IMG/VR virus record: IMGVR_UViG_3300032516_000174 | Coordinates: 1 to 25,978 of that record | Strand: one strand, 5' to 3' | Length of the DNA: 25,978 nt | Source: a virus | Shown here: positions 8,215-17,014 of the stretch, in pieces | Numbering within the stretch: position 1 is the stretch's first letter | Layout of the letters: every line of letters starts with the position of its first letter | Program-made: the position numbers and the translations under genes | The notes under the pieces: model-generated | The model's database searches: none | The model's input: the letters and a program-made list of their open reading frames with translations, nothing else | Told to the model about the DNA's origin: nothing

Positions 8215-8632
8215 CGACCACCTCCACGATGGGCTTAGAACGAACGGTCTTCACGAACTCATCCATGTTGCGCGGGCTCATACCCCACTGGTTTCCGCGC
8301 CAGTTCGCCAAGGCCAGTTTGCGGGCCTCGTTCGGGGACGCGGCCCCGATCGTGCACTTGTTGTTCGTCGCGCTGAGCACCTGCAAGCTGGCGAGCGTCT
8401 GCCCCGTGAATGTCATGTCGCGCAGGTTGCGGCGGCCCTTGATCTGCTTCCGGCGGGCATAGCCTGACGAGAGCGCTTTGGCTGGCGCGTCGGAGACGGT
8501 CAGCCCGGAATAGATCCGGTCGATGACGGACTTCGCCACCGCCTGGCCGACCTCACCCATGCGCTGGGGCGAAAAATTGGCCACGACCCAGCGTGCCTTC
8601 GTCACGGATTTTACGAGAGGATTGAAGGGCAT
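8204..8632 (-). CDS. Small phage morphogenesis-type protein, 142 aa
   Basis: The ATG at 8632 overlaps the stop of the endonuclease gene (TAATG), and the stop falls 11 bases inside the tape measure gene. An alternative start at 8662 would lie inside the endonuclease and is less likely. The protein is basic, with an N-terminal helix region, a GYARRKQ/KGRRNL basic patch, a TGQTLASLQ segment and a conserved-looking WRGNQWGMSPRNMDEFV stretch. The general look (basic, about 140 residues, a TGxxLxSL motif and a W-G-x-S/M segment) recalls the phage virion morphogenesis and gpZ/HK97 gp10-like neck proteins, but its place directly before the tape measure is unusual for those. I do not recognise it firmly; a structural or assembly role is inferred from the operon only. 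Confidence 0.72.
   Translation of the reverse strand: MPFNPLVKSVTKARWVVANFSPQRMGEVGQAVAKSVIDRIYSGLTVSDAPAKALSSGYARRKQIKGRRNLRDMTFTGQTLASLQVLSATNNKCTIGAASPNEARKLALANWRGNQWGMSPRNMDEFVKTVRSKPIVEVVGGR
8220..8225 (-). promoter_or_regulatory. Ribosome binding site of the tape measure gene
   Basis: GGAGGT lies five bases before the GTG at 8214, inside the end of the upstream gene. It decides a GTG start for the tape measure, where no ATG is near. Confidence 0.65.
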
Positions 8633-9441
8633 TACGCTGCCGCTTTTCTGGACATCCACCATTCCCGCATGGCTTGTGAATGCCTTGCGTTTTGTTCGGC
8701 GGGGTGCTTCAGGCTAGTATGCGATGCTGACAACTTAGCCCTGTGTTCTGGGGTAAGTTTTCTGCCGCGTTGCCACTCAGACATTTTCTCTCTTGACTTA
8801 ACGGATCTCTTTCTTCCGCGATTAGCGTCTGCGGCTTTCTGCTTTGCTTCGTCAGATCGCGGCGCCCGCTTGCTCCCCCGTTGGTACGCGGACATTTTGG
8901 CTCTAGTTTCAAGTGAAGATTTGCGGCCTTTATGGGCCGCTGCCATCTTTGCCCTGGTTTCGGTAGATGGCTTGCACCTTGCCCTTCCCCGCGTTGCCAT
9001 GGAAATCTTTTCTTTATGCTCGGGTGTCAGATTCCGCCCCTTGTTCGCCGCCGACAATCTGGCGCAGGTTTCAGCAGATGGATGTCGGCCCATACCCGCT
9101 CTACTGATCTTCTTTCTGGACTCCGCAGAGAGCATGTGCCCTGGTGCGCCTTCTCCGCCGTCTGCCATGTTCGTTAAAGGGCAGCCAAAGGCCTGATAAA
9201 AAGCAATCCAGAACCGTTCCGCTTCGGCCCATCCGCCATCAACTTCAGCGATGGCAAACAACCCAGGGGACAAACCGATCTTGAGAAGCGAAGCAATCCA
9301 GCGTGCCTTATGGCTCCGTTGTCGCTTGGCCTCCGAGATGTGCGCCCTCAATCGCTGCTGCGGAGTCTGTGTCCATCCGATATACCGCACTTGGTCAGTT
9401 CTCGGATCAGTCAAACCGTAGATCACGTATGGCCGCGTCAT
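8632..9441 (-). CDS. GIY-YIG homing endonuclease with NUMOD3 repeats, 269 aa
   Basis: The N-terminal 95 residues form a GIY-YIG nuclease: VIYGL at 6-10, RYIGWT at 19-24, the expected arginine at 30, the metal-binding glutamate at about 75 (EAERFWI) and an LTNMADGG end. From about residue 104 to the C-terminus come eight repeats of about 17-20 residues of the NUMOD3 type (for example TETRAKMAAAHKGR), basic helical modules that bind DNA along the homing site. The start is the ATG at 9441, overlapping the stop of the chaperone extension (ATGA); the stop overlaps the next ATG (TAATG). No intron or intein is seen, so it is a free-standing endonuclease that would cut phages lacking the gene and spread by repair. 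It is not expected to be part of the virion. Confidence 0.93.
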   Translation of the reverse strand: MTRPYVIYGLTDPRTDQVRYIGWTQTPQQRLRAHISEAKRQRSHKARWIASLLKIGLSPGLFAIAEVDGGWAEAERFWIAFYQAFGCPLTNMADGGEGAPGHMLSAESRKKISRAGMGRHPSAETCARLSAANKGRNLTPEHKEKISMATRGRARCKPSTETRAKMAAAHKGRKSSLETRAKMSAYQRGSKRAPRSDEAKQKAADANRGRKRSVKSREKMSEWQRGRKLTPEHRAKLSASHTSLKHPAEQNARHSQAMREWWMSRKAAA

Positions 9442-9857
9442 TGCTTCTTGAACTCCTCTGCTTCTTTCTTCAGCCGCTCCTCGCGGATGATACAAACCGC
9501 AGCGAACTCCTCGCAATTGATTGGGCCGATATCGATCGGAATCTGCGCAGCCGCCCCGAACTGCATTGCGCGTTGGATTAGACTTCCCAACCCGCCCCCC
9601 AATACCTCGTCTAGTTTCCGCGCCGGGCACTCCGGGCAAGGCTCTGCATCGCAAGCGCGGGATTCGCAGCACGGGCAGCCATCGGGGTCCGTCTCAGAGT
9701 GGAAAATCTTGCCACATTCCCGGCAGTGATAGTCATTGGCCTCGGGGCACGCATCAGCACCAGGGCACAGATCCTTAGAATTGAACCAGGCATGGATAAG
9801 GAAACGCAGGCTCGGCTGCTCGGGCCAACCGAGCTCTATGCTTCCGGGTCCTGATCC
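9438..9857 (-). CDS. Tail assembly chaperone, second part (lambda T-like), read by -1 frameshift; no start codon
   Basis: A frame of 139 codons runs from just after a TGA at 9860-9858 to the TGA at 9440-9438. It has no ATG, GTG or TTG until deep inside, so no independent start is plausible, yet the translation is clearly protein-like. It starts near GSIELGWPEQPSLRF, passes a block with ten cysteines (codons at 9767 to 9627, with HCRECG, GCPCCES and PCPECP pairs that suggest zinc ribbons), and ends in an amphipathic, Lys/Glu-rich helix. It lies one frame back from the end of the gene at 9836-10438 and overlaps it by 22 bases. This is the layout of lambda G/GT, placed between tail tube and tape measure as expected. 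A -1 frameshift would give a fusion of about 333 residues. A sequencing error in the overlap is the main alternative. Confidence 0.78.
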   Translation of the reverse strand, partial: GSGPGSIELGWPEQPSLRFLIHAWFNSKDLCPGADACPEANDYHCRECGKIFHSETDPDGCPCCESRACDAEPCPECPARKLDEVLGGGLGSLIQRAMQFGAAAQIPIDIGPINCEEFAAVCIIREERLKKEAEEFKKQ

Positions 9858-9860
9858 TCA
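9818..9860 (-). promoter_or_regulatory. Candidate -1 ribosomal frameshift site with downstream hairpin
   Basis: The shift must occur between the -1 frame stop (9860-9858) and the zero-frame TAG (9838-9836). One base after the TAG is a perfect 6-bp stem, GCTCGG (9834-9829) and CCGAGC (9823-9818), with a five-base loop. It starts seven bases after the run C CCG GAA (9848-9842), the usual spacing for a stimulatory structure. Purine-rich AGGA copies just upstream could act like an internal Shine-Dalgarno. The heptamer is not a canonical X XXY YYZ site, so the exact slip codon is uncertain. Confidence 0.55.
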
Positions 9861-10438
9861 TCTTCAACATTCAACTGCACCAAGAGTTCGGTGATCGCAG
9901 CGTCCTTATGAACGATCGGCACTGCGGATTTCTCGGCGTAGCCGGCTTCAGCCCGCCCGATCTTGTCCCACAGTTCTCCGCTCGGCTCCAAGTACGTTCG
10001 GATCTCCTGCGAGCGCCGGCCTTCGATGATCGGCGGCGCCGCGGCGCGGGAGAAAGACATAAGATCGGACTGCATTGGGATCTTCAGAAGGTGGACAACC
10101 TGACCGCCCGGCACGTTCATAGTGATCCTGAAGGCATCGCCCTCGCGTTCGCACGTAACCACTCGGCAGCGTTCCAGTTTGGAGACAGCCGCCGATGCCT
10201 CAGCTTGATCGAATGGCTCGCCCGCAGTATCAATGCGGATCTTGGAGAACAACTCGGCAGCCGAAGACTCTGCCCCCAGGACGCGACTCTGACTCTTACC
10301 GCGCCCGATAGATTCCCGTAGCACTTTGCGCTTGCGTGTGACCTCGCACCACTCAGCATCGGTAGGGAATCGGCAAACGCATTTCTTCACTCCGCCCGAA
10401 AGAATCGGGATCTCGAACTCAGCAGCAGAATTGAACAT
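9836..10438 (-). CDS. Tail assembly chaperone, first part (lambda G-like), 200 aa
   Basis: This 200-residue protein starts at the ATG at 10438, 11 bases after the tail tube stop, and ends in an acidic tail (NVEDEDQDPEA). It has no motif that I can name. The assignment comes from its place between the tail tube gene and the tape measure, and from the overlapping -1 frame that continues past its stop, which is the hallmark of the G/GT chaperone pair. Such proteins coat the tape measure during tail assembly and are absent from the finished virion. The N-terminal part (VCRFPTDAEW and a basic RKRKVL segment) may be a beta/helix fold related to other phage tail chaperones. The ribosome binding site is weak, so it may depend on read-through from the tail tube gene. 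Confidence 0.68.
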   Translation of the reverse strand: MFNSAAEFEIPILSGGVKKCVCRFPTDAEWCEVTRKRKVLRESIGRGKSQSRVLGAESSAAELFSKIRIDTAGEPFDQAEASAAVSKLERCRVVTCEREGDAFRITMNVPGGQVVHLLKIPMQSDLMSFSRAAAPPIIEGRRSQEIRTYLEPSGELWDKIGRAEAGYAEKSAVPIVHKDAAITELLVQLNVEDEDQDPEA

Positions 10439-12633: not shown

Positions 12634-12923
12634 TGCTCTGCTCCTCCCGAGGGGAAATATGTTACTTTGCTGAACCCATCCGTGACCTTGAAGCGCACCT
12701 GGCAGGGGCTTGAAGCCGCGAGAATGTCAGTAGCGCCAGGGGCGAACCGAACTTTGCCTGTCGGCTCATCGGTTATGGTTAACGTGCCTGTGAGGGTGAT
12801 CGCAGCACCATCCTGCTTCCGGGCGACGATGGATACGGTCAGGCCGTTTAGGTTCACCGCTATGCCATCTGCCTTGAGCTGGTAGTCGATGTTCCCGGTC
12901 CAGCCTTCCACGAGGTTGATCAT
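12615..12923 (-). CDS. Ig-like/BppU-N-like small phage protein, 102 aa
   Basis: The ATG at 12923 overlaps the stop of the giant adhesin gene (ATGA); the longer open frame upstream is a shadow of that gene. The protein is all beta in appearance: DYQLKADGIAVNLNGLTVSI, then a KQDGAAITLTGTLTI strand pair, TGKVRFAP and a closing VRFKVTDGFSKVTYFP. This is the order of the small Ig-like proteins that resemble the N-terminal domain of baseplate upper protein BppU. In siphophages it may be an adaptor for an appendage. It lies right after the adhesin-like gene, so a role in attaching or stabilising that protein is possible but is inference. Confidence 0.7.
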   Translation of the reverse strand: MINLVEGWTGNIDYQLKADGIAVNLNGLTVSIVARKQDGAAITLTGTLTITDEPTGKVRFAPGATDILAASSPCQVRFKVTDGFSKVTYFPSGGAEQWNIRK

Positions 12924-15900
12924 GCTAACGCCACCGCCATTCTCACCGGATTCAAAGACTTCACGCTGTGAAGCGCGACCAGCGGGACCGCCGTATGCTT
13001 CGCCAGCAGGGCAACCACCACGGCCTGCAAGAATTCCTGAATGGCGATGATCTTCGTGATCCCCGTCGCTTGTAGGGTGGTAATCGCCGCGAGAGTGAGC
13101 GAAGCCAGGATGTCTCTCTGCGCCGCCCGTGCTATGGTCGCCGATGCGCCGAGCGCGATCCAAGTCTCGCTTACAACTTGCGCAGCGAAGTCGAGTGTAG
13201 CCTGGAGATCCAGCGCGAATGATGCCGCCATGTTGCCTTGCGCGTTCGCGGAAAGCGCCCCCGACGCGACCAAACCCAAAAGTTCATCCTTGGTAATAAC
13301 CGCTTCGCCGCTTTCTGCCGCCTGCGCGGCCAGGGCGATCAGCGTCTCAAAGACCAACCCGCTATTCAGATTCATCGCGGCGGAAGATTGCAGGGTGACG
13401 GTTCCGAGCGTTTGCCAGAAACCAGCCGGCACGATCTCGGCCGCGCAAGCCAGCTCCAACGCGCCCGTGAAAATCGACGCGGCGACGCTCGGCGTCATTG
13501 CTCCGCTCGCGAGCGCGGACAGCACCACCTGCCAATCGCCCTGCGCATCGGGCGTCAAGCTACCAATAGCCGGCAAACTCAGCACCGCCGCGAACGTGAC
13601 GACCGGCTGCGGCAGCAGGGAACTTTGACCCGCGAGCGCGAGAGAGTCAAGGAACTCCGCGCCACCCGCGGAAGAGAACGAGGCGACTGCCGCGAGCGCG
13701 GCCGAGGCTTGCAGCAGAGCTTGAACTGACAAGGCCGTTGCCGCTCCCGCGCTAAGCGAGACGGCACCTTCGGCAGTTAAGACCGCTAGTGATAGCTTGC
13801 CGGCGGCCGCGGGTAGCGACGCGGCAGGCTGGAAATCGGCCAGCACGAAGCGCGAGAAATCTCCGGCAGCTCCCAGCGAGAGCGCCGCCTCGAAGATCAT
13901 GCCGCCGCCCTGCTGCTGTGCGGCGCCGGCGAGCAATTCGGCCAAAGCTTGGAAGGTCGCCGCAACCTGCGCGGTAACGGTGCCGGAAGCTGCGAGTGAC
14001 GCGGCTGGGCTCGCCTCAAGGACGGCGTCGTGAGTTATGCCTCCAGAGCCGGGCAGCGAGATTGATTCATTGTATACTCCCGCCGAAATCTTGCTCCAAG
14101 CAATCAATATTCGCGCGGCGGATACTGCGCCCGTCGAATTCGTCACGTTAACATCCATCAGGTCGCCGCTGGTGGGGAGGTCGAAGGGACTGGCACCGAT
14201 CTGCTGGTTGGCACCCGTGACCGTCGCATTGGTTATGTCCGCCGCGTCGGTGACGTTGTAAAGCTTGCTGGAATCGGCGGCGTTGCTGGCGTCGTGCGAA
14301 TATCTGGCTGCCAACGTTCCTCCGGTCCACTCAGAGGAAACGTACTTGCTGTACATCGCCTGGAGACCTGCTCCCGCGTCGGGCATGCAGAGCAACAGGT
14401 ATTGAAGGTCTAACTTCGTCAGCCCGGTGACGCCCACGAGTCTAGCCATGAGCGTGTAATTCTCCGTAGCCCAAGACGTGTTGGAACGAATGTAGGCATC
14501 GCCGGGAGAATCATGATAATCGTTCTGGCCCTCCAGCGAGATGTAGTTGGAAGCATCTCTGGCGCCTGACCGTGTAACCTGCACGTAATAGGTTGTGCTG
14601 AGACTCGGGGTGTACGGGGTGTCAAAAGTAAAGAGGGATTCGGCCCATACCGTTCCTACGGTGGAGGAATCGAGAGTGGCTTGTGCGAGGGACGAGCCTC
14701 CGAGGCTAGTGACGAGATCCACCACTAGGTTGTCCGTAGGAGATCCGGTCCTTTTGCAAACGAGTTTTACTCCCGTGATCTGATCGGTTCCTACGACAAG
14801 TACAAATGATTGCGCGTGCGCCTGGCTGGTCTCTCCCGATCCAGCAGTTCCTCCATAAATGTCGTAGGCGACATTGTAGAGGTTCGGCTGAAAAAGCGTC
14901 GTCCCCTCGTACGTGTCGATCAGCAACTTGTGGTTGTAGATCACGCACGAGCCAGCGGACACGCGAGCCGTCATGCGATAGTGTCTGCCGTCAGTCGGAG
15001 CGAACGTCCACTTCAAGATATTCAGTGTGTAAGACGAGGCACCAGGTAGGACGGTCTGTTTATCGGTCCAATTACCGAAACTTCCGTCATCCTCCTGGAT
15101 GTATATGTATACATTCCCTCCTGCGGGGCTTACGATCATGCTGCTGAATATGTTGCACGTTCCGTTCCACTTCGCGGCCTCATATTTCCAGTATTTCGGA
15201 TTGGTGAGCGGGGCAGCGGTAGTGTTCGTAATCGTCTCTTCGCTGCCAATCTCTATCTGAGTCTCGGAACTGTAGAGGCCGCTCTCCGTCATGCTGCCTT
15301 CGAGAACCACGATGCGCCAAGTAAGGACGGTCAGCGTGCCAGCACTTGGCTGCTTTATGTAGAGATAGAAATCTCCCTTTTCGTTGACTGGAAGCCCGAA
15401 CCGCTGGGATTCGAAATAGGTGTAGGAAGTCGTGCCGGCTGGTATCTCAATGGCGGCGATGTAATAAGCAGTAGCCCCCGCGTAATACAAGTATACGCGA
15501 CCGGTCGCGCTCACTGATGTTTTGGCGATGATGGCCACATAAGCCGTGTCGGAGGGCTGGTACACGCCGCTGTCCAGTTCGACTTTGGCATCGTAGGTAC
15601 CATCCCAATCTGCCCCAGTCGCAGACCGGGCGCCCATTGCTCCCTGGTTCTCTTGCCGAATGATAACCGAACCAACAGGAACCTGCCCCGAGGATTTGAA
15701 AGCCACCAGGATCATGCTGGCATTTGTGGTGCCGGAAGTGTTGAACGCGGCAGTGTAGGTCCCAACCGAATAGACGTCATAGTGCGAAGTGCCGTTCAGA
15801 CCGAAGTTAACGCGCTCGTCCAGAACAAAAGGAGCCACAACAGATGTCGTCTGATTGTCAACCATGCAGGCGCAGAACAACATGCAGACCGGACTTGTCG

Positions 15901-17014
15901 GAGTGATCCCGCTGGCAGTCGTAATTACGTTGCCGGAAGCCGTGACGTTGCCGGAATACACGCTTGCTTCCAGGGCGCTGACGGTGTCAATTCCGGAGAA
16001 TTCGTGAATGGCAATATCCCGATAGGTATTCGACCCGCTGCATGTCATCGTGACGGTTGGGGTTCCGGCGCCGGTGCACAAGAAATAGAATAGCTGAATG
16101 GTGTAGCCGGTTAGGTTTCCGGTACCTCTTTGCGGTGATCCGATTGCCGTCCAAGCTCCGTTTACGCTGTCGGAAACGGTGCATGTCTGAGTGGCAGATC
16201 CCCAGATGCAGGCGGCTACCAATGCTCTGCCAACTGCGACCGCACTAGAGAACGCCAAGGCCAAAGTTGCCGAGGAAGAAGTGGCCGTGGTGGATCGACT
16301 CTGGATCTTTCGAGGAGCGACGCCCTCGTTGGTGTTTATGACAGTGTAAGTGAGGATGATCTGCCCGTCTGTGCCGTTGCCTCCGGCGAGGTTGCTGGTA
16401 TTGCGGTGGCCTGCTCCGCCGCCGCCCCCTCCATTTCCGGAGCCGGGGGCGGAGCCGACCGTGTGGTTAGCACCACCGTTGCCTCCATCCCCTCCGGGGG
16501 TGCCGCTCGCGCCCGTCTGGCTGTTGGCGGTGGTGCCGTCCGCGGCGCCGCCCGAGCCTTCGCCGCCGCCGCCGCCCACGCCATTCTGGACCCCGGTGTA
16601 CCCGGCTCCGCCGCTCCATTTCGTCGTGCCGTAACCGCTGCCCGCAGCGCCGCCAGCTCCGCCGGCACCTGGAGTTGCACTGAGGCCGGGGTTGCCGCCG
16701 ATCCCACCCTTGGCCACGCATCCGGTCGATCCATTGGCGAGGAACCAGGCAGGTCCTCCATCCCCACCTTTCGCCGCGGCGACGCCGGAGCCTTTCACTC
16801 CTACCGAAAAGGGATAACTATTTCCGGGCTTGACCGTGAAGACGCGCAGTGAGTAAGCTCCACCGCCGCCCCCGCCGCCGGCGCCCGTACCCGCCGTGGT
16901 GTAAGAACCACCTCCGGCGCCGCCTGCCCCGTAACACTCAACAGAGATAGAATTCACCCCGGGCGGGCAGACCCACGGACTGCTGGTGGCGGTTGTCAGG
17001 GTTTGCGTTGCCAT
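12920..17014 (-). CDS. Giant glycine-rich, repeat-containing adhesin-like virion protein, 1364 aa
   Basis: The N-terminal 220 residues are a glycine-rich domain with runs of Gly, of the type seen in phage fibre and adhesin proteins. Residues about 230-455 look like a beta-sandwich adhesin domain (SVSDSVNG-type turn, IHEFSG, final ILVAFKSS). About 460-560 and 712-862 are further beta-sandwich, carbohydrate-binding-like modules; the latter has AQSFVLV, VCKRTGSP and FDTPYTPSLSTTYYVQV. Residues 982-1322 are seventeen 20-residue alanine-rich repeats. The gene lies between a gpFII-like protein and tail-tube-side genes, in the neck part of the operon, so it could be a collar, whisker or capsid appendage rather than a tail-tip fibre. 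No catalytic motif was found. The middle of the gene is AT-richer than the rest, suggesting module exchange. Start ATG at 17014; weak ribosome site. Confidence 0.8.
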   Translation of the reverse strand: MATQTLTTATSSPWVCPPGVNSISVECYGAGGAGGGSYTTAGTGAGGGGGGGAYSLRVFTVKPGNSYPFSVGVKGSGVAAAKGGDGGPAWFLANGSTGCVAKGGIGGNPGLSATPGAGGAGGAAGSGYGTTKWSGGAGYTGVQNGVGGGGGEGSGGAADGTTANSQTGASGTPGGDGGNGGANHTVGSAPGSGNGGGGGGAGHRNTSNLAGGNGTDGQIILTYTVINTNEGVAPRKIQSRSTTATSSSATLALAFSSAVAVGRALVAACIWGSATQTCTVSDSVNGAWTAIGSPQRGTGNLTGYTIQLFYFLCTGAGTPTVTMTCSGSNTYRDIAIHEFSGIDTVSALEASVYSGNVTASGNVITTASGITPTSPVCMLFCACMVDNQTTSVVAPFVLDERVNFGLNGTSHYDVYSVGTYTAAFNTSGTTNASMILVAFKSSGQVPVGSVIIRQENQGAMGARSATGADWDGTYDAKVELDSGVYQPSDTAYVAIIAKTSVSATGRVYLYYAGATAYYIAAIEIPAGTTSYTYFESQRFGLPVNEKGDFYLYIKQPSAGTLTVLTWRIVVLEGSMTESGLYSSETQIEIGSEETITNTTAAPLTNPKYWKYEAAKWNGTCNIFSSMIVSPAGGNVYIYIQEDDGSFGNWTDKQTVLPGASSYTLNILKWTFAPTDGRHYRMTARVSAGSCVIYNHKLLIDTYEGTTLFQPNLYNVAYDIYGGTAGSGETSQAHAQSFVLVVGTDQITGVKLVCKRTGSPTDNLVVDLVTSLGGSSLAQATLDSSTVGTVWAESLFTFDTPYTPSLSTTYYVQVTRSGARDASNYISLEGQNDYHDSPGDAYIRSNTSWATENYTLMARLVGVTGLTKLDLQYLLLCMPDAGAGLQAMYSKYVSSEWTGGTLAARYSHDASNAADSSKLYNVTDAADITNATVTGANQQIGASPFDLPTSGDLMDVNVTNSTGAVSAARILIAWSKISAGVYNESISLPGSGGITHDAVLEASPAASLAASGTVTAQVAATFQALAELLAGAAQQQGGGMIFEAALSLGAAGDFSRFVLADFQPAASLPAAAGKLSLAVLTAEGAVSLSAGAATALSVQALLQASAALAAVASFSSAGGAEFLDSLALAGQSSLLPQPVVTFAAVLSLPAIGSLTPDAQGDWQVVLSALASGAMTPSVAASIFTGALELACAAEIVPAGFWQTLGTVTLQSSAAMNLNSGLVFETLIALAAQAAESGEAVITKDELLGLVASGALSANAQGNMAASFALDLQATLDFAAQVVSETWIALGASATIARAAQRDILASLTLAAITTLQATGITKIIAIQEFLQAVVVALLAKHTAVPLVALHSVKSLNPVRMAVALA
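13049..14071 (-). repeat. Seventeen tandem 20-residue (60-base) coding repeats
   Basis: Residues 982-1322 of the adhesin-like protein divide into seventeen units, sixteen of exactly 20 residues and one of 21. In each, position 4 is usually hydrophobic, position 6 is Leu, position 8 often Ala, position 10 Gly or Ala, position 12 often hydrophobic, and position 20 often Phe. Examples are EAALSLGAAGDFSRFVLADF and ETLIALAAQAAESGEAVITK. The DNA copies have diverged, so the repeat is kept at the protein level. A further weaker unit may follow (IAIQEFLQA). Confidence 0.8.

Follow-up and report, generated by a model that had tools for sequence, protein, structure and literature searches.

The locus considered here raises the question of how a protein-coding frame that has no start codon of its own could be translated. 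The window, by which we mean the whole stretch of 25,978 bases, is a virus contig, from a soil phage, on which the genes at this locus lie on the minus strand (Table 1). Overlapping the end of a gene that resembles G by position, a second frame runs in the -1 register, with its first ATG, GTG or TTG (a TTG) at codon 86. A first-pass annotation had described this frame as a start-less gene at 9438-9860 and proposed that ribosomes reach it by slipping into -1 at C CCG GAA, in the manner of G/GT. The frame itself spans 9857-9438, positions 9858-9860 being the TGA stop that precedes it; the 22-nt overlap with the frame-0 gene (9857-9836) and the ATGA that joins the terminal TGA of the second frame to the ATG of the endonuclease gene are both present as described. 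An ATA also overlaps the frame-0 TAG stop (ATAG). Our comparisons make a programmed -1 ribosomal frameshift of the lambda G/GT type very likely at this junction, since about 90 related phages and prophages keep the arrangement; the mechanism itself belongs to a class that is already known.

Table 1. Features at and around the junction of the two frames (positions in the window)
Feature	Position	Strand	Remarks
Frame-0 gene (position suggests a G-like tail assembly chaperone)	9836..10438	-	200-aa ORF; stop TAG at 9838-9836
Open -1 frame (T-like segment)	9438..9857	-	139 codons stop to stop, plus TGA at 9440-9438
T-like coding part 3' of the slip	9845-9441	-	135 codons
Slip heptamer C_CCG_GAA	9842..9848	-	Frame 0 reads GAC CCG GAA GCA TAG
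Predicted 9-bp hairpin GCUCGGUUG-GCCCGAG-CAGCCGAGC	9810..9834	-	Candidate stimulator, 7 nt past the heptamer
Weak Shine-Dalgarno-like GAGGA	9855..9859	-	Candidate stimulator, 6 nt 5' of the heptamer
GIY-YIG/NUMOD3 homing endonuclease gene	8632..9441	-	Pfam NUMOD3 and GIY-YIG matches

The genomic setting is that of a tailed phage. Elsewhere the window carries a tailed-phage set of genes for terminase, portal, protease, scaffold and major head protein, together with a tape measure gene match, and the frame-0 gene has a tube-like gene on one side and the tape-measure region on the other. No family matched the tube gene, and its name comes solely from position and synteny; its product is 38% identical to the tube-like protein of one relative (L002), and for the small gene after T the identity between the two is 32%. 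The gene order fits the G/GT arrangement of lambda, with which the locus shares the succession of tube-like gene, chaperone, -1 extension and tape measure region, a slip site where the first ORF ends and an extension that brings no start of its own. A 1364-aa ORF (12920-17014, minus strand) is located upstream of the tube-like gene; its first 228 residues, and only these, match phrog_863, a family of tail fiber assembly proteins (E = 3e-10).

Relatives were reached through the frame-0 protein. A search with it gave a single IMG/VR relative, whose alignment opened up the family: alignment-based searches yielded more IMG/VR relatives and then Acidobacteriota MAGs titled Solibacteraceae, Bryobacterales and Acidobacteriia. 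With near-copies removed, the sample comprises 92 distinct loci, drawn from IMG/VR and from genomes of Acidobacteriota, and frame-0 proteins of the relatives are 29-49% identical. As queries, the -1 segment alone retrieved no IMG/VR relative and the tube-like protein no relative, while tblastn against GenBank phages gave nothing for the frame-0 protein, the -1 segment or the L002 chaperone. Within one family, 46 of 237 genomes carry loci, several with up to six copies. Two single acidobacterial MAGs (G002 and G003, with L027, L028, L030, L031, L038-L041 and others) each hold six copies of the gene pair with differing slip sites; six copies per MAG suggests that one genome can house many related prophages or tail-like elements.

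Across these loci the second frame persists as a coding sequence. Of the 92, 89 have a recognisable T-like segment (the match in L099 is weak, E = 0.02), with no match in the distant loci L033, L035 and L036, and 88 of those 89 have it in the -1 frame; the -1 arrangement, whose overlap the first-pass annotation had proposed to compare among homologues, is kept by the relatives. The remaining locus, L058, was considered as a frame-0 exception and rejected, since its segment starts in -1 and a 1-nt indel inside the segment explains the discrepancy. Because the homology tables include the loci that had served to build the profiles, we tested the window again using a profile that lacked it, which matched only the T-like ORF among the window's 548 six-frame ORFs (E = 1.6e-26). 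This places the ORF beyond chance. Upstream of the slip, dN/dS in 29 non-overlapping pairs is low for frame 0 (0.12) and high for frame -1 (2.78); downstream the order is reversed (frame 0, 2.41; frame -1, 0.11). Judged by these ratios, purifying selection changes frame at the junction, and the second frame is protein coding from the slip site onward.

What the loci have in common at the junction is a slip site, although its identity varies, and such a range of alternative sites within one family differs from lambda G/GT. A classical X_XXY_YYZ heptamer is present in 73 of the 92 loci, C_CCG_GAA in 8 (window included) and a U_UUU-type site in 11. The classical sites are CCCAAAC (49 loci), AAATTTT (12), GGGAAAC (5), GGGTTTT (2), AAAAAAC (2) and, once each, GGGAAAA, GGGTTTC and AAACCCT; the 49 loci use CCA AAC at the site, and CCA makes up 7% of Pro codons in these genes. 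Against a background of 15,918 in-frame heptamers from the same genes (18 canonical, 2 CCCGGAA), 70 of 92 loci have a canonical heptamer at the final two codon pairs versus 0.21 expected, and 8 have C_CCG_GAA there versus 0.02, in a tally where, as in those of SD-like stretches, fold z and ATA/ATT/ATC/CTG codons below, the slip position is one base off for about ten loci (most of the U_UUU class, none with CCCGGAA). The U_UUU-type loci without a classical heptamer (L014, L024, L064, L068, L084, L086, L088, L091, L092, L093 and L097) have AAGTTTT (7), CAGTTTT (2), AGATTTT (1) or AACTTTT (1); these sites mostly abut the stop codon (AGT TTT TAG) and form a second non-classical slip class in the chaperone-like family.

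The window's own site is in the frame that the first-pass annotation had given, and it is non-classical, with GGA in the position of YYY of X_XXY_YYZ. The further claim that it is a new variant does not hold, since PRFect (2024) already gives CCCGGAA as a hypothetical slip motif, 'threetwotwo', drawn from annotated phage tail-chaperone frameshifts and explained by its authors through G:U pairing of the second tRNA (PMC10885494). That motif was inferred from a SEA-PHAGES training set (PMC10885494), whereas here comparison across a separate phage family backs the identical heptamer, with relatives showing classical heptamers at the CCCGGAA place. CCCGGAA occurs at the equal place in the window, L002, L005, L040, L041, L066, L067 and L095. 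In a quick chaperone tree, in which the joins of long branches are uncertain, the seven of these loci that are long enough need a single label change and group with L003 (GGGTTTT) on long branches with support 93. Given those branches, and identities to the window's protein of only 42% in L002 and 37% in L005, the heptamer has been kept, or regained, across much protein change.

Candidate stimulators flank the site on both sides. A hairpin of at least 5 bp starting 2-10 nt past the heptamer occurs in 90 of 92 loci versus 63% of control windows, and mean z at the site is -0.68 versus -0.29 to 0.19 in controls (dinucleotide shuffles; about ten loci offset as above), a modest signal. In the window, 9834-9826 would pair with 9818-9810, and the predicted fold reaches -19.2 kcal/mol over 40 nt (z -3.2), weaker over longer stretches. 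Upstream, an SD-like stretch with five or more matching bases is found in 49 of 92 loci versus 27 +/- 4 under synonymous resampling (with the same offset), an excess that is not a strict test since the loci are related; the window's own match has four bases only. This family-wide tendency toward an upstream SD-like stretch and a downstream hairpin resembles -1 cassettes of the dnaX and IS911 type, from which the window differs in the weakness of its SD-like stretch and in its unrelated gene.

Could the second frame be reached without frameshifting? A sequencing or assembly indel may have split one gene into two frames, as metagenomic contigs may hold indels and L058 has one inside its segment. 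This is exceedingly improbable, as 88 of 89 distinct loci, taken from many assemblies, show the equal frame relation. No relative was found with the two frames fused; a merging of both frames into one was what the first-pass annotation had named as evidence against its proposal. Alternatively, the segment may be a separate protein made by translational coupling from a non-standard start, either a CTG or the ATA of the ATAG overlap, and coupled reinitiation is common in phage operons; L003 even has a TTG two codons beyond its slip site. However, L003 is the one exception, the other 91 of 92 loci having no ATG, GTG or TTG from 5 codons before to 12 after the slip codon, so that the annotation's other counterindication, relatives with their own start codon, fails as well. 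Near the junction, 36 of 92 loci (about ten offset by one base, as above) are without ATA, ATT, ATC or CTG, none of which is common to most, and the counterpart of the window's ATA in L005 is CTA. The ATA start was rejected because it is not conserved across the 92 loci, and the conserved element is the slip site instead; we regard a separate protein from a non-standard start as very unlikely.

A recoding event of another kind would give the equal downstream frame, namely P-site-only slippage at CCG, or +2 slippage, in place of a tandem slip by two tRNAs. C_CCG_GAA is imperfect as a tandem heptamer, and in 11 relatives the sole candidate is a U_UUU-type site, in most cases beside the stop codon. 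Yet perfect tandem -1 heptamers stand at the equal place in 73 of 92 loci, which +2 slippage leaves unexplained, and tRNA-Glu can re-pair with GGA through G:U; slippage in the P site only, or by +2, therefore seems unlikely to us. Transcriptional slippage was set aside because there is no long homopolymer at the site. That C_CCG_GAA is a true, efficient slip motif, acting by tandem re-pairing with a middle G:U and kept over deep divergence in Acidobacteriota phages, is a proposition to which we give an even chance.

The proteins themselves are unlike known chaperone families in having no detectable sequence homology to them. Neither matched a tail-chaperone family in Pfam or PHROG, and searches of PDB sequences and with Foldseek and VIA-align placed the chaperone in no family. 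The AlphaFold2 model of the G-like protein is confident (pLDDT 87), and its fold search returned no clear match, with one nameless viral hit (E = 8e-4), Mu FS-gp41 only at E = 0.18 and nothing clear in the PDB. The model of the T-like segment (pLDDT 79) includes a short zinc-ribbon-like part that weakly resembles the ribbons of reverse gyrase and rubrerythrin, with weak Pfam matches too. A Cys-rich, zinc-ribbon-like stretch of this kind, present in the T part of many members, is a difference from lambda G/GT; the L002 segment is without these cysteines, so zinc is inessential to the chaperone-like family. This family, absent from Pfam and PHROGs, and the deep conservation of C_CCG_GAA are what is new here.

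The -1 frame of the relatives, the absence of start codons, the slip site and the switch in selection together support the G/GT-type frameshift proposed in the first pass. In the mechanism that we infer, most ribosomes would translate the 200-aa G-like protein and terminate at UAG, while a minority would pause at C_CCG_GAA, the hairpin downstream probably helping and weak upstream SD-like pairing perhaps aiding the pause too. In a one-base backward slip, tRNA-Pro would move from CCG to CCC, keeping its first two pairs, and tRNA-Glu (anticodon UUC) from GAA to GGA, forming G-C, G:U and A-U; the G:U pair that arises at the middle position may make the latter move tolerable. Slipped ribosomes would continue in -1, and their product would be a G-T fusion of 333 aa. 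What counts against such a slip is that, in E. coli, a C_CCG tetramer gave 1.8-3.6-fold over background, a strong pseudoknot notwithstanding; the heptamer set of that study (X_XXZ_ZZN) excludes C_CCG_GAA (PMC4066793). By analogy with the roles of G and GT in lambda (PMC5009743), the G-like protein may coat the tape measure protein and the T part may recruit tail-tube subunits.

The endonuclease gene is a neighbour that lies outside this frameshift unit. Its insertion after T, which has no parallel in lambda G/GT, separates the T-like segment from the next tail gene; within the fetched stretches of the loci, an endonuclease gene at this place is confined to the window, the other loci showing no relative of it. 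Nine relatives have a match to that next tail gene that starts 11-23 nt ahead of the T stop's end. In L066, L030 and L038, a match to the usual successor of T appears only 250-620 nt farther on, and there may be other insertions or differently placed genes after T in these loci.

About 90 loci from soil viruses and Acidobacteriota genomes would thus join the G/GT frameshift class as a previously unrecognised, large chaperone-like family, the T segment of which would be missed or truncated by start-based gene callers because it has no start codon. The family offers independent comparative support for a non-classical slip motif, and rules based on X_XXY_YYZ would miss C_CCG_GAA; if this heptamer is indeed an efficient tandem motif, the accepted heptamer rule should be widened. 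Since the slip site differs between close relatives, these phages and prophages also provide a natural series for testing which sites work.
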